Assembly (NCBI RefSeq): GCF_000169375.1
Contig: NZ_AAXY01000002.1
Location: forward strand, 62,001 to 126,000
Direction of reading: 5' to 3'
DNA: 64,000 nt
DNA from: Marinobacter sp. ELB17
GTDB taxonomy: Bacteria > Pseudomonadota > Gammaproteobacteria > Pseudomonadales > Oleiphilaceae
The notes under the pieces were generated by a model, which had not been told where the DNA came from, made no database searches, and was given only the letters and a program-made list of their open reading frames with translations. A program made the position numbers and the translations under genes. Positions 27,660 to 53,558 of the stretch are shown here, piece by piece (positions within the stretch are counted from its first letter, which is position 1; the number at the start of each line of letters is the position of its first letter).

Positions 27660-28358
27660 TCAGCTTAAATCCAGGTGCTGTTCGCGCTCGGCGCGAACCA
27701 GCAGATTCGCCATGCTCTGAACGTCCAGCAGGGCGCACATCTGCTCAATCACTGTGCCAGCCAGCCATGGCCGCTTGCTACGCGACGTGCGCCAGCGCAC
27801 CTGCTGGGGGCTCAAAGTAAAAGATTGAGCTACATTATCACAAGCCAGCCCCCAATCACTGTTGTTAAGGTGTATCACAAACCGATAATTAGCGCGTGCG
27901 TTTGCCGGTGCCCGACCCGCCATAATCCACTCAGCACTGTCGACCACCCGCAGGTTTTTGTCCCGGCCCGGGCGAATACCCATATACCAAGACGGACTTC
28001 CGGGCATCGGCATTACATCGTCTTCGATGCGGTGAACGCCCCCTAGCAGCACCAAGGGCACAGCCAGCTGCAACCCTGCCACGGTAAAAATCAGACATTC
28101 AAATGGCTTTTCGGCCCACTCAGGCCTTGCCTGCGGCCCGGCTATTGGCAACAGTTTCGGGGCGGTCACGGCCTGCGCTAATGGTGCAGCAATTGCGGGC
28201 TCTGGCTTGGCCGGCAGCGGCTGCGGCTGCGGCGCTATTGCCACCGCCGGTTTGGCAACAGCCTGCGTGTCCTGCTGATGCGCCTGATCGGTGGCCGTGT
28301 GCAACAGGTCGTCCAGATAACTGGCGATGGCGGCTTGCGGGTCCGCCAGCTGTGTCAT
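27660..28358 (-). CDS. parP: CheW-like protein ParP
   Basis: The 232-residue protein has a Pro/Ala/Gln-rich N-terminal half (about 25-85) and a divergent CheW-type C-terminal domain (KPFECLIFTVAGLQLAVPLVLLGGVHRI; SPSWYMGIRPGRDKNLRVVD; LACDNVAQSFTL). The gene order parC-parP-cheW is that of the Vibrio/Pseudomonas system in which ParP binds CheA and the ParA-like ATPase to keep chemotaxis arrays at the cell pole. That function is family knowledge. Start ATG 28358 lies seven bases past the parC stop. It could also be called an auxiliary CheW. Confidence 0.78.
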   Translation of the reverse strand: MTQLADPQAAIASYLDDLLHTATDQAHQQDTQAVAKPAVAIAPQPQPLPAKPEPAIAAPLAQAVTAPKLLPIAGPQARPEWAEKPFECLIFTVAGLQLAVPLVLLGGVHRIEDDVMPMPGSPSWYMGIRPGRDKNLRVVDSAEWIMAGRAPANARANYRFVIHLNNSDWGLACDNVAQSFTLSPQQVRWRTSRSKRPWLAGTVIEQMCALLDVQSMANLLVRAEREQHLDLS

Positions 28359-28365
28359 TTTTTTG

Positions 28366-29163
28366 TCAGCCACCAGACGGCTCCAGCCAGGTACCGGTTT
28401 GCGCCAATAAATCGTCAAGCAGGCGGTGATAAGCGCGCACTCCGTGGGTGTTGACGTCTACCGCTGAGGGCACTAATCCGGCCTGGCTGGCATCACGGAA
28501 CTTTGTGTCTACCGGTATGGCAAAACGCCAAAGCTGATGCGGATAGGTATCACGCAGCAGATTCAGGCTTTTATTCGAGGCTTGGGTTCGGCGGTCAAAT
28601 AGAGTTGGCACAATGGTATAGCTCAAGGGATTTTTCTGCGAACGGCTAATCATGTGCAGCGTGTGCAACATGCGCTCAAGACCCTTAATGGCCAAAAACT
28701 CGGTTTGCACCGGAATAATCAAATGGCTTGCCGCCGCCAGGCTGTTAACCATCAGCACGCCCAATGTTGGGGTGTTATCCAGCAGCACGTAGTCAAAATC
28801 ATCCCACAGCTGCGCCAGCGCGCGGGAAATCAACAGACCCATGCCTTCAACACCTGTGACCCGCCTTTCCAGGGTTGCCAGGGCAGTGCTGGCCGGCATT
28901 AACGAAAGATTGGGCACGCCGGTGTCGGTAATCAGCTGTGCGGGCAGTCCTTCGGGTACTTTTCCCTGATGTTGAAACAGGTCAAACAGGCTGTGCTTGA
29001 GGCGGTCCGGATCATAGCCAAACCAGCTGGTAAGCGAACCGTGCGGATCCATATCCAGCATCAGCACACGCTTGCCACGGCTGGCCAACAGGTCGCCCAA
29101 GGCAACCACGGTGGTGGTTTTACCCACCCCGCCTTTTTGATTGGCCACTGCCCAAATTCGCAC
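28366..29163 (-). CDS. parC: ParA-like ATPase ParC of the chemotaxis locus
   Basis: Walker-type ATPase of the ParA/MinD family; not topoisomerase IV ParC. The start is the GTG at 29163, with AGGAGG eight bases upstream (positions around 29171-29176); the longer reading frame has no such site. From there it is 265 residues, MRIWAVANQKGGVGKTT with the deviant Walker A at 9-17, DMDPHGSLTSWFGYD, and DYVLLDNTPTLGVLMVNSL. In Vibrio and Pseudomonas the homologue positions chemotaxis arrays at the flagellated pole. It lies between motD and parP; a perfect hairpin is found in its leader. Confidence 0.84.
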   Translation of the reverse strand: MRIWAVANQKGGVGKTTTVVALGDLLASRGKRVLMLDMDPHGSLTSWFGYDPDRLKHSLFDLFQHQGKVPEGLPAQLITDTGVPNLSLMPASTALATLERRVTGVEGMGLLISRALAQLWDDFDYVLLDNTPTLGVLMVNSLAAASHLIIPVQTEFLAIKGLERMLHTLHMISRSQKNPLSYTIVPTLFDRRTQASNKSLNLLRDTYPHQLWRFAIPVDTKFRDASQAGLVPSAVDVNTHGVRAYHRLLDDLLAQTGTWLEPSGG

Positions 29164-29196
29164 GTTTGATCCTCCTGCCTGTCCTCGGCATTTCAC

Positions 29197-30090: not shown

Positions 30091-30834
30091 CTACCAGGGA
30101 AGAAATCCACGCAAGCGGATTTCGATGGATTTAGGGTTTTCACCTTCAGCGATGGCAATAAGGCCTTCGATCATCATGTCTTCGTAGCGGGTGCGCTCGC
30201 GCACCAGCCCGCGCAGCTTATTGGCCACCGGGAAAAAAAGCAGGTTAGCCAACGCCACCCCATAGATGGTGGCAACAAAAGCGGTGGCTATACCGCTGCC
30301 CAGTGACTCCGGGTCTTCCAGGTTGGTCATTACCTGAATTAGCCCCATCACCGCGCCGATAATGCCGATGGTGGGCGAATAGCCGCCCATGGCTTCAAAC
30401 ACCCGCGCCGAATCCAGATCCCGCTGCTCTCGGGTTTCCAGCTCTACTTCCATGATGCTGCGAATGGTGTTGCTTTCGGCACCGTCAACCAACAGCAGCA
30501 AGCCTTTTTGCACAAACCGCTCCGGCTCGCTTTCTGCTAGCCCCTCAAGCCCCAGAAGGCCTTTTTTGCGGGCAATAACGCTCCAGTTCACAACTTTGTC
30601 GAGGCCGTCTTCCAGGCTGACAAACGGCGGCACAAATACCCAGCGGGATTGGCTGAACGCATGCTTCAGCACCGGCCAGGAGGTCTGCAGTATCGTGGCC
30701 GCCAGGGTACCGCCAATAACAATCAGCGCCGCCGGCGCGTTGAACAACGACGCAAGCGCACCGCCTTCCAGTAGATTACCCCCCAAAATGGCTACAAACG
30801 CCAAGATAACGCCAAGAAGGCTAAGCACATCCAT
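30091..30834 (-). CDS. motC: Flagellar stator protein MotC (MotA/PomA family)
   Basis: Stator A subunit that couples ion flow to FliG. The 247 residues have four membrane segments (about 4-25, 30-50, 150-170 and 180-200), with the typical GGTLAATILQ near the second and GYSPTIGIIGAVMGLIQVMTNLEDP at the third. A cytoplasmic loop between segments 2 and 3 contains charged residues for rotor contact. The ATG overlaps the cheB stop by one base (TGATG), and 16 bases separate it from motD. Confidence 0.92.
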   Translation of the reverse strand: MDVLSLLGVILAFVAILGGNLLEGGALASLFNAPAALIVIGGTLAATILQTSWPVLKHAFSQSRWVFVPPFVSLEDGLDKVVNWSVIARKKGLLGLEGLAESEPERFVQKGLLLLVDGAESNTIRSIMEVELETREQRDLDSARVFEAMGGYSPTIGIIGAVMGLIQVMTNLEDPESLGSGIATAFVATIYGVALANLLFFPVANKLRGLVRERTRYEDMMIEGLIAIAEGENPKSIEIRLRGFLPW

Positions 30835-31964
30835 CAGCTGACTCCATCTTTAAGCCGCTGGCAAACGTCGTTCAGCGCCAGAATTTCGTCACTCAGGCCG
30901 GCTTTAGCCACGGCCATGGGCATGCCGTAAATCACCGAGCTTTTTTCATCCTGCGACCACACAATCGAGCCGCTCTGTTTCATCATGCGACAGCCTTCCC
31001 GGCCATCTGCGCCCATGCCTGTTAGAACAATACCCAAAGTTTTACCGGGAAAGCTGCGTGCCAGCGAACCAAAGGTGACATCTACCGAAGGTTTGTAATT
31101 GAGCCGATCATCGCCGGGTAATATACGTACCCGGCCTTGGCCACCGCGGTTTTCCACCATCATTTGTTTGCCGCCGGGTGCCAGCAAAGCCAGGCCGGGG
31201 CGCAACACATCACCGTCTTCCGCCTGGCGCACCTGTATTTGGCAAGACCGGTTCAACCGCTCGGCAAAAGCCGGGGTAAAACTGGCGGGCATGTGTTGCA
31301 CCAGAATCAGCGGTGCGGGAAAGCTGGCAGGCAGGCCGATGAGCACGTTCTGCAGGGCCACCGGGCCACCGGTAGAGGTGCCGATCGCCACCACTGTAAA
31401 GTGCCTGGATGGTGTACGCCGGTGATGGCGCTCCGGACTGGCAACCGCTGCTGCAGCCGCGGGGCGCCGCTGTACCGCTGGAGTCGCGGCGCGGTCAGTC
31501 GCAGGCGTAGCCCCAACCGATGCCACTGGTGGCTCATGGGCGCGAGTGCTCCCAGAGCTGCTGGGGCGACTACGGGCAATACTAACAACACGTTCTACCA
31601 ATATTTTTTGTAACTGACTGCTGTTACCGGCAATTTCTTCGAAATTCTTGGGCAGGAAATCCACGGCTCCAGCTTCCAGCGCATCCAGGGTGACCCGCGC
31701 ACCATCATAAGTAAGCGAAGAAAACATCAGCACCGGTATCGGGTGTCTGCGCAGTATTTCCCGCACGGCCGTAATCCCGTCCATGACCGGCATTTCATAA
31801 TCCATGGTAATCACGTCAGGATGCAGTTTCTCTGCTTGCTCTACGGCTTCGCGGCCGTTGCTTGCGGTGCCAACAACGGTGATCTGGCCAGACGCACCAA
31901 GGATTTCACTCAGGCGTTTACGAAAGAAACTGGAATCATCAACAATCAGCACAGAAACCGTCAT
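30834..31964 (-). CDS. cheB: Chemotaxis methylesterase CheB
   Basis: Response regulator with glutamate methylesterase/amidase activity that resets receptors. The 376 residues have an N-terminal receiver domain (VLIVDDSSFFRKRL; phosphoacceptor in VITMDYEMPVMDG), a long Ala/Pro/Arg-rich linker (about 130-190), and the catalytic domain with the serine in GTSTGGP, histidine in LVQHMPASFTPAF and aspartate in GMGADGREG. A strong GGAGGAGTAA ribosome site precedes the ATG. It follows cheA after a 95-base gap and is coupled to motC. No cheR is present in this window. Confidence 0.94.
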   Translation of the reverse strand: MTVSVLIVDDSSFFRKRLSEILGASGQITVVGTASNGREAVEQAEKLHPDVITMDYEMPVMDGITAVREILRRHPIPVLMFSSLTYDGARVTLDALEAGAVDFLPKNFEEIAGNSSQLQKILVERVVSIARSRPSSSGSTRAHEPPVASVGATPATDRAATPAVQRRPAAAAAVASPERHHRRTPSRHFTVVAIGTSTGGPVALQNVLIGLPASFPAPLILVQHMPASFTPAFAERLNRSCQIQVRQAEDGDVLRPGLALLAPGGKQMMVENRGGQGRVRILPGDDRLNYKPSVDVTFGSLARSFPGKTLGIVLTGMGADGREGCRMMKQSGSIVWSQDEKSSVIYGMPMAVAKAGLSDEILALNDVCQRLKDGVS

Positions 31965-32059: not shown

Positions 32060-34102
32060 TTAACTGTAATGTTGCAGCAAACTGGGCACATCGATAATCA
32101 GCGCGATCCGACCATCGCCGGTAATGGTAGCGCCAGCCATACCCGGCGTACCCAACAGCCCGCGCCCGAGAGGTTTAATCACCACTTCTTCCTGGCCTAC
32201 CAGCTGGTCAACCACGAACCCGACCTGGCGGGTACCCATAGACACAATCACCACGTGGCCGTTTTCCGGCTCAACGTTTCCAGCACCGCCACGAATGAGC
32301 CAACGCTTGATGTGAAACAGCGGGAATACCTTGTCGCGCACCACAACACACTCGCGACCATCTACCACGTTGGTCTTGCTCAAATTAAGGTGGAATATTT
32401 CCACCACGTTAACCAATGGCAGTGCGAACGACTGGTCAGCAAGCATAATCATCAGCGTAGGCATGATGGCCAGAGTCAGTGGCACTTTGATCACAATGCT
32501 TGAGCCTTCGCCCAGCTTTGACACCACGCTTAGCTGGCCGTTGAGCTGGCTGATTTTTGTTTTCACCACATCCATACCCACACCACGGCCAGACACATCG
32601 GAAATCTGGTCTTTGGTGGAAAAACCGGCGGCAAATATCAGGTTGTAGCATTCCTGATCGGTCAGCCGGTCGGCGCCATCCTGGTCATACATGCCCTTTT
32701 CGACTGCTTTTCGGCGCAACACGTCGGCGTTCATGCCGGCGCCATCGTCGGTGATCAACAGCAGGATGTGATCACCCTCTTGCTCCGCCGACAAGGTAAT
32801 GGTGCCGACTCTGGGCTTACCGGCCCGTTCCCGCTCTGCCGGGCTTTCAATGCCGTGGTCCACCGAGTTGCGCACCAAGTGCACCAACGGATCCGACAAT
32901 GCTTCCACCAGATTTTTGTCGAGATCGGTGTCTTCGCCGTGCATCACCAGATTGATTTCTTTTTTCAGGCTGCGAGCAAGGTCACGTACCACCCGCGGGA
33001 AACGACCAAACACTTTCTTGATGGGCTGCATGCGGGTTTGCATGACAGCAGCCTGCAGGTCGGTGGTGACCACAGCCAGATTGGCCACTGCTTTGTGCAT
33101 CTGCTCGTCTTCGCTTTGATCACCCAGGCGTTGCAGGCGGTTTCGCACCAGCACCAACTCGCCCACCATATTCATGATGTCGTCCAAGCGTTTAGTATCT
33201 ACCCGCACGCTGGTTTCCGAAGCGGCATGGGCAGCATCGCGGGCCGGCGCTTTGGCTTGTGCCGGTTCGGCTGGAGCTTTGGCCACTGCTGGAACCTTGG
33301 CTGGTTCCGGCTTTTTAGCGGGCGCTGGCGCGGCGGACGCGGCCGCAACGACTGCTTTCGGGCTGCCGCCCTTACCGTGAAGCTGGTCCAGCAGTGCTTC
33401 GAATTCGTCGTCAGAGATATCGGTTGGCTGGGCACTGCTCGTCTCAGCCGCGGTTTCTTTGGCGGCTGCCGGCGCGACCGGGGCGCCGGCGAACTGGCCT
33501 TTGCCGTGAAGCTGATCAAGAAGAGCTTCGAATTCGTCGTCGTTGATGTCGCCATCGCCACTTGCAACCGGGCTAGCCGCACTGGTTTCGCTGGCAGCCG
33601 CTGACGCTGTTTCGTCGCCGTTCAGGGCGTCGAGCAGCTGTTCGAATTCGTCATCGGTAATGTCGCCCTGATCAGCGCTGGCGGGCGCAGCTGAATGGAT
33701 CGTAGCTTCGCCTTCAGGCAATGCCAGCTGATCCAGCCGTTCAATCAGTTCCTGCGGCGCCGGCGTGGGCACTTCGCGCTGACGCACCTCTTCGAACATG
33801 GCATTCACGTTGTCCAGGGTTTCCAGGACTACGTCCATCAGCTCAGAGGTTACTTTGCGCTTGTGGTTGCGCAGGGTGTCGAATACGTTTTCCGCCGAGT
33901 GACAGCAGTTTACCAGGGCATCTAACCGCAAGAAGCCTGCTCCGCCTTTGACCGTGTGAAAACCACGGAAGATGGCATTCAGCAAATTGCTGTCGTCAGG
34001 ATTCTGCTCCAGGTCCACGAGCTGCTCAGACAACAGCTCAAGAATCTCACCGGCTTCAACCAGAAAGTCCTGCAGGATTTCTTCATCGCCGTCAAACGAC
34101 AT
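32060..34102 (-). CDS. cheA: Chemotaxis histidine kinase CheA
   Basis: Central kinase that phosphorylates CheY and CheB. The 680 residues run: Hpt domain with phosphorylated His49 (FHTVKGGAGF); a linker of about 185 residues; dimerisation domain (from about 297, RVDTKRLDDIMNMVGELVLVRNRL); HATPase domain (LVHLVRNSVDHGIE, DDGAGMN, GRGVGMDVVK); and a C-terminal CheW-like domain. No folded P2 domain is apparent. In its place the linker holds three near-identical acidic motifs at 147-162, 185-202 and 228-245 (DI-x-DDEFExLLDxLHGKG), separated by Ala/Pro-rich spacers. These resemble the CheY-binding peptide of FliM and the end of CheZ (see findings). It lies between cheZ and cheB. Confidence 0.95.
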   Translation of the reverse strand: MSFDGDEEILQDFLVEAGEILELLSEQLVDLEQNPDDSNLLNAIFRGFHTVKGGAGFLRLDALVNCCHSAENVFDTLRNHKRKVTSELMDVVLETLDNVNAMFEEVRQREVPTPAPQELIERLDQLALPEGEATIHSAAPASADQGDITDDEFEQLLDALNGDETASAAASETSAASPVASGDGDINDDEFEALLDQLHGKGQFAGAPVAPAAAKETAAETSSAQPTDISDDEFEALLDQLHGKGGSPKAVVAAASAAPAPAKKPEPAKVPAVAKAPAEPAQAKAPARDAAHAASETSVRVDTKRLDDIMNMVGELVLVRNRLQRLGDQSEDEQMHKAVANLAVVTTDLQAAVMQTRMQPIKKVFGRFPRVVRDLARSLKKEINLVMHGEDTDLDKNLVEALSDPLVHLVRNSVDHGIESPAERERAGKPRVGTITLSAEQEGDHILLLITDDGAGMNADVLRRKAVEKGMYDQDGADRLTDQECYNLIFAAGFSTKDQISDVSGRGVGMDVVKTKISQLNGQLSVVSKLGEGSSIVIKVPLTLAIMPTLMIMLADQSFALPLVNVVEIFHLNLSKTNVVDGRECVVVRDKVFPLFHIKRWLIRGGAGNVEPENGHVVIVSMGTRQVGFVVDQLVGQEEVVIKPLGRGLLGTPGMAGATITGDGRIALIIDVPSLLQHYS

Positions 34103-34118: not shown

Positions 34119-34904
34119 TCAGAAACCAAGACTGGACAACAGGTCATCCACGTCATCCTGACCAGACAACACATCTTTGCGTTGTTCTGGCATTATTTGC
34201 GGACCCACACCCTGCTCAGCCGAGGGCTGATTGTCCTCAATCTGGTGCACTGTGCCGGTCAACTGGTCTACGTGGCCGGCCATCACCACCAGGCTCACCA
34301 GGTTGTCTTCCACTTTACGCACAAGGGTGATCACATTTTGAATCACTTGACCTGTCAGGTCTTGATAATCCTGAGCCAACAAAACTTCTGAGAGGTTACC
34401 GTACAGTTTGCCAGCGTCGGTGCTCAACGCCACCAAAAACTGGTCCATGCGAGCGTGCAACTCGCGAAATTCTGTCGGTTCCATGTCCCGCCGCCGCAGG
34501 CGCTGCCACTGCTGGTGCAGATCTTGGGCTTCGTCTTGCAAATGACGGGCGACCGGCATGCTTTCTTCTACCAGATCCATGGTGCGATTCGCCGCCTCGC
34601 CAGTCATTTTCACCACGTATTCCAGGCGATCAGAAGCGTCGGTCATTTTTGACAGAGCTTCTTGCTGTTCGGGGTTGCGCGGATCAATCTGAAAATTACG
34701 CCTGGCTTCGTGCAGGCTGCGGGTTAGCCGCCCTACTTCGTGGTACAGGCCCTGATTTCGCACTTCTGCAAGCTCGCTGATCATCGCCATAGCGCGGGAA
34801 TAATCGCCCGCATGCACGCTCTCAACCAGCTGTTCGGACTGTTGCTTTAATTTTGCCGTCAGCTCTGGTTCCAGGGCATGGCGCTCGTCTGTTGACTTGC
34901 TCAT
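34119..34904 (-). CDS. cheZ: CheY-phosphate phosphatase CheZ
   Basis: Dephosphorylates CheY-P to terminate the signal. The 261-residue protein is mostly long helices that form a four-helix bundle dimer. The catalytic motif is in LLAQDYQDLTGQVIQNVI (the DxxxQ arrangement with the attacking-water Gln). The C-terminal tail SGQDDVDDLLSSLGF is the CheY-binding peptide. It sits between cheY and cheA with 16-28-base gaps, in one transcription unit. Confidence 0.93.
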   Translation of the reverse strand: MSKSTDERHALEPELTAKLKQQSEQLVESVHAGDYSRAMAMISELAEVRNQGLYHEVGRLTRSLHEARRNFQIDPRNPEQQEALSKMTDASDRLEYVVKMTGEAANRTMDLVEESMPVARHLQDEAQDLHQQWQRLRRRDMEPTEFRELHARMDQFLVALSTDAGKLYGNLSEVLLAQDYQDLTGQVIQNVITLVRKVEDNLVSLVVMAGHVDQLTGTVHQIEDNQPSAEQGVGPQIMPEQRKDVLSGQDDVDDLLSSLGF

Positions 34905-34924: not shown

Positions 34925-35296
34925 TTACTGAATTCGCTCAAAGATTTTTTCGATTTTTTCTTTGAGAACGGCGGCAGTGAACGGCTTTATAATGTAGCCG
35001 TTCACACCGGCCTGCGCCGCAGCGACAATCTGGTCGCGCTTGGCTTCGGCCGTCACCATCAGGATCGGCAGGGTTTTCAGCTGATCGTCGGCGCGAACAT
35101 TCTTGAGCAGGTCAAAACCGGACATGCCGGGCATATTCCAGTCGGTCACCAGAAAGTCGTACTTGCCGGTTTTCAGCATAGGCATTGCCGTATTGCCATC
35201 GTCGGCTTCGTCGGTGTTGGTGAAGCCCAAGTCACGCAGCAGGTTTTTGATAATGCGCCGCATCGTGGAAAAATCGTCCACAATGAGGATTTTCAT
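34925..35296 (-). CDS. cheY: Chemotaxis response regulator CheY
   Basis: Single-domain receiver that binds FliM when phosphorylated. From ATG 35296 it has 123 residues, with acidic pocket Asp7/Asp8, phosphoacceptor Asp52 (TDWNMPGM), Thr82 and Lys105 (KPFT). The longer frame to 35362 has no support from homologues. A TTG four codons upstream (35308) has GGAGG five bases before it and is a possible alternative start. The sequence is of the Pseudomonas cluster I type. Gap to fliA is 89 bases and contains a strong hairpin. Confidence 0.94.
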
Positions 35297-52044: not shown

Positions 52045-52563
52045 CTATTTCTGCAAGCGCTTGATGCGCTCGCCCGGGCTCATGACGTCCGTCAGGCGAA
52101 TGCCAAATTTATCGTTAACCATCACCACCTCGCCGTGGGCAATCAAGGTGCCATTCACCAGCACGTCCAGCGGCTCGCCGGCCAGACGGTCAAGCTCGAT
52201 CACCGAACCCTGATTCAGCTGTAGCAAATTGCGGATGGGAATCATGGTATTGCCGACTTCCATCGAGATGGTCACCGGTATGTCCATGATCACGTCGAGA
52301 TCTGGCGAGCCTTTTGAAGTGTTAACGCTGTCTGAACTAAACTCTTCCATGGGCGCTGCGCGCACGTTGTTTTTTTTGTCGCTTTTTTTATCACGATTCT
52401 CAGCGCCAGCCGCCTCGGCCATCGCCTCGTCCCCGTTGTCTTCGGTGCGGTCAGACTCTACACCGGAATCTGCACCAGACTCACCCATCGCGGCTTCCCA
52501 CTCTGCCGCCAGCTTTTCATCTTCGCTCATATTCTGGTCGTCTGTTTTATCGTCGTCAGCCAT
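52045..52563 (-). CDS. fliN: Flagellar motor switch protein FliN
   Basis: C-ring component. The 172 residues have an acidic N-terminal extension (about 1-85, Asp/Glu/Lys-rich with LAAEWEAAMG) and the C-terminal SpoA domain (LDVIMDIPVTISMEVG, IRNLLQLNQGSVIELDRLAGEPLDVLVNG, GEVVMVNDKFGIRLTDV). The ATG overlaps the fliM stop (TAATG). Confidence 0.95.
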   Translation of the reverse strand: MADDDKTDDQNMSEDEKLAAEWEAAMGESGADSGVESDRTEDNGDEAMAEAAGAENRDKKSDKKNNVRAAPMEEFSSDSVNTSKGSPDLDVIMDIPVTISMEVGNTMIPIRNLLQLNQGSVIELDRLAGEPLDVLVNGTLIAHGEVVMVNDKFGIRLTDVMSPGERIKRLQK

Positions 52564-53558
52564 TAGGTACGCCCTATCTTCAGTTGTTTCTTGACCTTGG
52601 GCAACGTCGCCCGTCCGTGAATTCTTAGTGCCAATTTGTCATCGCGGGTGCCCAACGTTGCGGTATATATCGGAATACCGTTAGCGGTGACGGTTAAATG
52701 CTCCGCCATTTCAATGGGTATGATGTCACCGGCTTTGAACTTGGCCACTTCACGCAGTGAAATGTGGCGACGGCAGATTGTAGAGTTCACCGCCACACTC
52801 ACTGTCTTGATGTCTTCCTGAAGCGCGCTTACCCAACGTTCGTCGGTGTCGTCGATGTCGCTTTGCACCCCAGCGTCTAACACATCGCGAATGGGCTCAA
52901 TCATCGAGTATGGCAGCGCAAAGTGCAGCTCGCCGCCGCCGCCGTCCAGTTCTATATGAAAGGTGCTCACCACGACCACTTCGCTGGGGCTGACAATATT
53001 GGCCATAGACGGGTTCACTTCCGAGCTCAGATACTCGAAATTCACTTTTAACACCGTCTGCCAGGCTTCCTGCATGTCGTGGAATACCTGATTCAGCATC
53101 ATCTGCACAATGCGGTTTTCGGTAGGGGTGAATTCGCGGCCCTCAATTTTGGCGTGGCGGCCCTGGCCACCGAAGAAGTTGTCCACCAGTTTGAATACCA
53201 GTTTTGCATCCAGCACAAACAGCGACGTGCCGCGCAGCGGGCGGATTTTGCACAGGTTCAAACTGGTTGGCACGTAAAGGGTGTGCACGTACTCGCCGAA
53301 CTTCATGATCTGAACGCCGCTGGTTGACACATCGGCGGTGCGCCGCAGCAGGTTGAACAGGCTAATGCGGGTATAGCGGGCAAAACGCTCGTTAATCATT
53401 TCCAGTGTCGGCATGCGCCCGCGGACGATGCGGTCCTGGCTGGCCAAATCGTAGCTTTTTACACCGCCTTCGTCGGTGTCGTCTTCGGTGTCGATGTCAC
53501 CGTCGTCTACTCCATGAAGGAGCGCATCGATTTCGTCCTGAGACAGCAAGTCCTGCAT
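52563..53558 (-). CDS. fliM: Flagellar motor switch protein FliM
   Basis: C-ring protein that binds CheY-P and sets rotation sense. The 331 residues start with the CheY-binding peptide LSQDEIDALLHG (5-16), an acidic linker, the middle CheC-like domain (GRMPTLEMINERFARYTRISLFNLLRR) and the C-terminal SpoA domain. It is separated from fliL by about 70 bases. The N-terminal peptide is the reference for the CheA repeats reported in findings. Confidence 0.95.
   Translation of the reverse strand: MQDLLSQDEIDALLHGVDDGDIDTEDDTDEGGVKSYDLASQDRIVRGRMPTLEMINERFARYTRISLFNLLRRTADVSTSGVQIMKFGEYVHTLYVPTSLNLCKIRPLRGTSLFVLDAKLVFKLVDNFFGGQGRHAKIEGREFTPTENRIVQMMLNQVFHDMQEAWQTVLKVNFEYLSSEVNPSMANIVSPSEVVVVSTFHIELDGGGGELHFALPYSMIEPIRDVLDAGVQSDIDDTDERWVSALQEDIKTVSVAVNSTICRRHISLREVAKFKAGDIIPIEMAEHLTVTANGIPIYTATLGTRDDKLALRIHGRATLPKVKKQLKIGRT

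Follow-up and report, generated by a model that had tools for sequence, protein, structure and literature searches.

Where does a chemotaxis kinase without a recognizable P2 domain dock its response regulator, and could short repeats in the linker between P1 and P3 do so instead? The question is raised by the cheA gene of the window, i.e., the whole stretch of 64,000 nucleotides of Marinobacter sp. ELB17 DNA that was analysed. Its product has Pfam matches to Hpt (residues 8-100), H-kinase_dim (297-356), HATPase_c (403-543), and CheW (550-678), and three near-identical repeats of 16 residues each lie between P1 and P3 (Table 1). By homology, CheAs of this class are the flagellar chemotaxis kinases in Pseudomonas and Marinobacter as well as in numerous other gammaproteobacteria. 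We consider it likely that P2 has been replaced in these proteins by a disordered tether with short FliM-like motifs that dock CheY.

The absence of P2 is in itself not exceptional. According to the accessible part of Berry, Andrianova and Zhulin 2023 (PMC10542144), over half of the CheAs have no P2, and the P1-P3 region is unstructured in AlphaFold models; the missing P2 and the unstructured linker are features that these proteins have in common with the class of the window CheA. In the published article (PMC10782961), a term search of the main text did not return "motif," "repeat," or "short linear." The CheA of P. putida is treated as an E. coli-like five-domain protein with P2 in the accessible text of PMC11978298. 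Among the papers listed by searches of the open-access literature, none was seen to describe FliM- or CheZ-like repeats in CheA.

The linker of the window CheA

The open reading frames around cheA follow the order fliA-cheY-cheZ-cheA-cheB-motC-motD-parC-parP-cheW on the minus strand. Six of them were assigned by Pfam, while the names of the others are those that we presume for such a cluster. By core similarity and gene order, the window CheA falls among the F6-type kinases, a label that we take, from general use and from papers, to be the appropriate one for its class.

Table 1. Features of the window that bear on the CheA repeats (nucleotide positions are those of the window; aa, residues of CheA)
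Feature	Position	Strand	Remarks
cheA	32060..34102	-	680 aa; P1-linker-P3-P4-P5, P2 not found (Pfam)
CheA linker	aa 134-300, 33203..33703	-	Predicted disordered outside the three repeat helices (pLDDT <50)
CheA repeat 1, DITDDEFEQLLDALNG	aa 147-162, 33617..33664	-	N-terminal copy type, without LHG
CheA repeat 2, DINDDEFEALLDQLHG	aa 185-200, 33503..33550	-	
CheA repeat 3, DISDDEFEALLDQLHG	aa 228-243, 33374..33421	-	
cheY	34925..35296	-	123 aa; product proposed to bind the repeats; Response_reg 3.5e-31; best solved match 3to5, "CheY homolog"
CheZ C-terminal tail, QDDVDDLLSSLGF	34122..34160	-	CheY-binding peptide by homology; Pfam CheZ 2.3e-72; tail also in relatives
fliM	53558..52563	-	N terminus begins MQDLLSQDEIDALLHG
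FliM N-terminal peptide, LSQDEIDALLHG	53511..53546	-	CheY-binding by homology
parP-like gene, CheW-domain protein	27660..28364	-	Start uncertain; candidate partner in the LID alternative; Pfam CheW 4.6e-14; 267 bits with profile A3, which includes it
parC-like gene, ParA ATPase	28366..29172	-	Start uncertain; candidate partner in the LID alternative; Pfam AAA_31 2.1e-43
cheB	30834..31964	-	Candidate second client of the docking array; Pfam Response_reg and CheB_methylest

The three repeats were found in the linker where the original prediction had placed them. Its range for copy 1 was correct, whereas its ends for copies 2 and 3 lay two residues too far; likewise, the LHG ending that it ascribed to all copies does not apply to copy 1, which ends in LNG.

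No Pfam match to P2 or to a CheY-binding domain was obtained for the window CheA at E<=1 or for 42 F6-like linkers at E<=0.01. By itself, this is weak evidence, because HMMER with Pfam found no P2 in 39 non-F6 linkers either; these 42 and 39 linkers are the ones that passed automatic boundary rules, which 29 loci failed. (In alignment A1, the linker of locus L134 was omitted for its length and the window linker was added.) The structure predicted by AlphaFold2 from a 42-row alignment has a pLDDT of <50 for almost all of residues 134 to 300, and the sole helices in this region, 151-158, 188-199, and 231-241, are the repeats. The claim that no P2 is visible is thus supported by the Pfam searches and by the predicted disorder of the linker apart from three helices. 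The AlphaFold2 model also addresses the possibility that the repeats are part of a folded P2, since it places them outside any folded domain.

A hidden P2 was rejected: hhalign gave a probability of 0.7% for F6-like versus other linkers, and the AlphaFold2 linker is disordered. Profile searches of the PDB with the F6-like or the other linker set gave one weak match each, of no use. The residues F, I, L, V, W, Y, and M account for 8% of the spacers versus 30% of the motifs. We also rejected an EF-hand reading of GDGDINDDEF in repeat 2, as no EF-hand family was matched at E<=1 (Pfam) and the residues ahead of the motif are variable in the linkers of relatives. The proposed array would share with P2 (Pfam P2, CheY-binding) its site between P1 and P3 and the presumed job of docking CheY near P1. 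However, P2 is a folded domain, whereas the window CheA has several 16-residue motifs in a linker that is predicted to be disordered.

Occurrence of the motif among CheAs

CheAs were classified as F6-like by the similarity of their core; the cheY-cheZ-cheA-cheB-motCD-parC-parP-cheW neighbourhood that goes with this type is incomplete at some of the F6-like loci. The cut of 350 bits in core score was chosen after the scores had been seen and falls in a gap between the other CheAs (<=337 bits) and the F6-like CheAs (>=365 bits). The most divergent F6-like locus, L181, scores 365 bits; L149 was counted as F6-like despite its broken core.

Two sets of loci were used. The 80 named loci are enriched for the motif because DINDDEFE was one of six patterns in the scan that gave them. 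The class panel was chosen without regard to the motif and consists of 30 loci and 80 further CheA regions, among the matches listed, down to an E value of 5e-10; it omits G060:C130, G116:C346, and the window's own locus. The class-wide search covered 143 genomes, 86 of which had H-kinase_dim matches, with each of the listed ones from a different family.

As the original prediction had suggested, linkers were aligned and motif copies were counted across relatives. The motif, with the consensus I[ST][DE]xEFExLLDxLHGxG, is present in 130 of the 132 F6-like CheAs (80 named loci, 51 class-panel loci, and the window). Position by position, the percentages are I94, T68/S25, D72/E27, D55, E98, F99, E86, x, L95, L98, D91, x, L82, H60, G68, x, and G55. 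The two F6-like CheAs without it have broken linkers, interrupted by Ns in L152 and by the contig end in L164, and L152 has three motif-like stretches in other reading-frame pieces of the same locus. Altogether, the 130 proteins contain 417 copies, one to eight each, three or four being the commonest numbers overall; within the class panel, one copy was counted in 5, two in 14, three in 24, four in 5, and eight in 1. The spacing has a median of 42 residues (27-69, n=287).

The non-F6 CheA frames behaved differently. With the threshold set at 0.2 bits from shuffled linkers, 58 of these 59 frames, which include fragments such as L141 (24 aa), L103 (315 aa), and L101 (418 aa), remained below it. 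The one frame above the threshold, L081, reached 4.6 bits with an unrelated-looking helix, versus 26 to 60 bits for the listed copies from F6-like CheAs; the next frame scored -5.0. At the level of the phylum, 200 genomes were searched and yielded 30 loci, comprising the window's own, 23 F6-like ones, and six more distant CheAs. The motif occurs in all 23 F6-like loci, down to 52% core identity (three genomes being repeated from the panel), and in none of the six more distant CheAs outside the class. A Vibrio CheA was sought in the panel by identity to CheY3, and none was clear (best match, 91% over 115 residues).

The copies are not all alike. Among CheAs with at least three copies (80 named and 30 panel proteins), HG is missing from the first copy in 65 named and 26 panel proteins and present in the last copy in 77 and 24, respectively. 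First copies often carry Ala at position 12, and later copies mostly have LHG.

Some linkers show additional features. In genome G033, the CheA of L134 (1073-aa frame) combines eight motif copies with a long KPAAAPA tandem tail, and in a non-F6 CheA of the same genome (838-aa frame; L088:562-1512, plus strand), P1 and P3 flank a globin domain (Pfam Globin, 1.4e-19), possibly a built-in haem sensor. The low-complexity CheA linkers of L268, L269, and L270, from the same phylum but outside the class, have a block L-x-PGEVxLDELERxFRETA in common that might be an analogous docking peptide.

Resemblance to the FliM and CheZ peptides

The whole genome (4.89 Mb, both strands) was scanned with a degenerate DNA pattern that corresponds approximately to [ST][DEHQ]xE[IMVFL][DE]x[LF][LF] and leaves out serine encoded by AGY and, at the fifth position, leucine encoded by CTN. 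It matched three places, namely CheA repeat 1, CheA repeat 3, and the N terminus of FliM; repeat 2 falls outside the pattern because of the N at its first position. The reversed pattern had no match in the whole genome. Since the pattern had been designed with both proteins in view, a profile made from FliM only was used as an independent test.

This profile was built with substitution-matrix pseudocounts from 47 FliM N termini, which comprise six distinct 10-mers (LSQDEIDALL in 35 of the 47), and was run against 988,493 residues of six-frame open reading frames from 80 loci and the window. Of its 100 best matches, 57 were CheA motifs and 31 were CheZ tails, while 4 lay elsewhere in CheA and 8 were of other kinds. 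Among the best 50, there were 29 CheZ tails, 18 CheA motifs, and one site elsewhere in CheA; the remaining two are the window's FliM, which had itself been used for training, and a HATPase-like stretch. When the columns were permuted, 30 such profiles together returned a single CheA motif (mean, 0.03); CheZ tails averaged 0.9 per profile, with 23 of these tails coming from one profile, and the mean for other CheA sites was 23.8 of 100. The reversed FliM profile found neither CheA motifs nor CheZ tails. Composition thus counts in part, as one permuted profile found the 23 CheZ tails and permuted profiles often hit CheA sites other than the motif. The counts are inflated by kinship among the rows and by the choice of loci around CheA, biases that the permuted controls carry as well.

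The likeness is one-sided, as profiles made from CheZ only or from CheA only return it poorly. Among the 100 best matches of the CheZ profile, built from only the 121 tails that end in LGF (105 of which read QD[DE]VDDLLSSLGF), there were 9 CheA sites, the best three of which lay outside the linker motifs. With a CheA profile of 13 columns, CheZ tails scored 10.0 bits at most, and the window's FliM was absent from the 198 places that scored above zero. In other words, the matches of the FliM profile are order-specific but not reciprocal, and the motif can therefore be described as FliM-like over ten positions with a tail of its own. The proposed likeness of the repeats to FliM and to the CheZ tail is borne out in this order-specific sense by the FliM-only profile versus the 30 permuted controls, with weak reciprocal searches.

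In detail, the motif shares I/L-S/T-x-x-E-hydrophobic-D/E-x-L-L, in this order, with the N-terminal peptide of FliM. The latter, however, is a single copy at the protein terminus, with Ile and without the DxLHGxG tail, whereas the CheA motif has Phe and occurs in several internal copies. With the CheZ tail, it has x-D-E-hydrophobic-D/E-x-L-L-x-x-L-G/H in common; this tail is a single C-terminal copy that ends in GF and has Val where the CheA motif has Phe.

Proposed CheY docking and its alternatives

The linker region that contains the repeats is also that of the LID of Vibrio CheA, which is reported to be bound by ParP and which the accessible text of PMC5706961 and PMC7534058 places between P2 and P3 and describes only for CheAs with ParC/ParP. 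In the window, parC and parP belong to the same gene cluster as cheA. Conceivably, the repeats are a LID that binds the AIF domain of ParP and ties CheA to the polar ParP/ParC anchor, rather than a docking site for CheY. They are the most conserved elements of the linker, and the alignment has no other strongly conserved block before the P3 edge, so ParP may also use the motif. As the explanation of the repeats, however, ParP binding seems unlikely to us. The ParP profile matched 45 of 52 genomes (51 with an F6-like CheA and the window's) at E<=1e-6, the matches in G012 and G025 having only 34 to 38 bits, the level of plain CheW matches. The window's ParC was searched for in 12 chosen genomes of the 52, with G088, which has no ParP match, left out; clear ParC matches scored 192 to 284 bits, and second-best ParA matches in other genomes scored up to 123. 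In the assemblies of G001, G010, G022, G025, and G026 (91 to 100% complete), neither ParP nor a ParA match above 128.5 bits was found. Yet these genomes retain the motif, with four copies in G001, two in G010, one in G022, two divergent ones in G025, and two in G026. If the motif were the LID, it would thus occur outside its described association with ParC/ParP in five genomes. G111 and G056, with a ParC match but without a ParP match, retain it as well, whereas no motif was found in a non-F6 CheA (878 aa) of G012 (C37, L114), which shares its stretch with a ParC homologue (216 bits) as well as with a weak ParP/CheW-like gene. Nor would ParP binding explain the likeness to FliM. Because the motif is kept where neither ParP nor ParC was found, ParP is unlikely to be what keeps it, and we have rejected LID/ParP as its sole function. 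The ParP N termini themselves (28364..27660 of the window, minus strand, and alignment A3) have a conserved YLDxLL peptide followed by a variable linker, perhaps the ParC-binding part.

Alternatively, the copies may be specialised, such that the array serves CheY and ParP (or CheB) and the first copy, usually without LHG, has a different partner. The unequal distribution of HG over first and last copies would fit such a dual use, but all copies have the same core, and first copies without HG persist in G001 and G026 (L147 and L162), where ParP/ParC were not found; we hold this to be quite unlikely. Still less credible, in our opinion, is a generic helix-capping or oligomerisation repeat of the SHOCT type, with convergence of acidic amphipathic helices as the source of the FliM/CheZ likeness. 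The window CheA scores 27.9 bits versus a Pfam cut-off of 27 for SHOCT, 35 of 42 linkers match at E<=0.01 (best, 3.8e-11), and the poor mutual return of the CheA and CheZ profiles could be accounted for in the same way. However, the best match in the window covers only positions 11 to 26 of 28, a partial match that makes membership in this family doubtful; SHOCT is a C-terminal domain of 28 positions, whereas the repeats are internal and multiple. Furthermore, to judge from the permuted profiles, the CheA motif does not owe its likeness to FliM to composition alone, and a generic repeat leaves the restriction to the P2-less class unexplained.

We return to CheY docking as the preferred explanation. 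In the mechanism that we envisage, a disordered tether rich in Ala, Ser, and Pro, usually with two to four short linear motifs, would stand in for the folded P2. As an amphipathic helix, each motif would dock to the alpha4-beta5-alpha5 face of CheY, which is the FliM/CheZ face. Docking would raise the local concentration of CheY beside phospho-P1 and thereby allow fast phosphotransfer, and several copies might provide avidity or a local reservoir of CheY. Once phosphorylated, CheY would partition to the peptides of FliM and CheZ, which compete with the motifs for this face. Like the original prediction, we read the repeats as a multivalent set of peptides that substitutes for P2, and we extend this reading to the whole class. 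The failure to find a folded P2, the likeness to FliM and CheZ, the conservation throughout the class, and the persistence where no ParP/ParC was found all argue for this substitution, and from these sequence features we infer that the repeats bind CheY. If so, the account of the transition from F6 to F7 would need revision, as would domain-deletion experiments and CheY-flux models, and the question of how P2-less CheAs dock their response regulator would be answered in part.

The CheY of this class is consistent with such a role. All 45 sequences from the panel and the window have I95, V103, Y106, K109, and K119, 43 have Q94, and 35 have R92, and to judge from these residues the face used by FliM is retained. 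In the accessible text of Ortega et al. (PMC7184735), CheY positions 92, 94, and 103, assigned to the P2 face, are said to have changed when CheY moved from the F6 to the F7 CheA, which fits the absence of P2 in F6 CheA. We see about an even chance that the F6 pathway as a whole relies on a single short linear code, in which case CheA (one to eight copies), FliM, and CheZ would compete for the same CheY face, the CheA arrays would be tunable reservoirs of CheY, and the E. coli-type F7 system would have taken over the CheY/CheZ pair and re-tuned CheY 92, 94, and 103 because it exchanged a peptide array for a folded P2.

On the P2 domain of E. coli CheA, the sites for CheY and CheB overlap. By analogy, CheB is a possible second client of the docking array. 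For P. syringae, the accessible text of PMC11253619 reports that CheY2, and not CheY1, bound FliM, and a CheA2-CheY2-FliM route to the motor was proposed. The activated form of V. cholerae CheY3 binds FliM, and the face involved is said to serve both FliM and CheZ (accessible text of PMC3774744). This poses a puzzle, since a docking site on the kinase should favour unphosphorylated CheY or release it quickly. One may speculate that the Phe and the LHGxG tail set the preference for one form of CheY.

A last model carries no weight for or against docking: CheY was tethered in one chain to CheA residues 1 to 247 and folded with a different, shallower alignment, the output gave no contacts, coordinates, or PAE, and CheY itself reached a pLDDT of only 66 to 74 at residues 81 to 110. 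The same three helices appeared, and the repeat pLDDT was modestly higher, with blocks of 56/76, 71/69, and 61/84 versus 58, 51/70, and 43/74/41 for CheA alone (registers differ).
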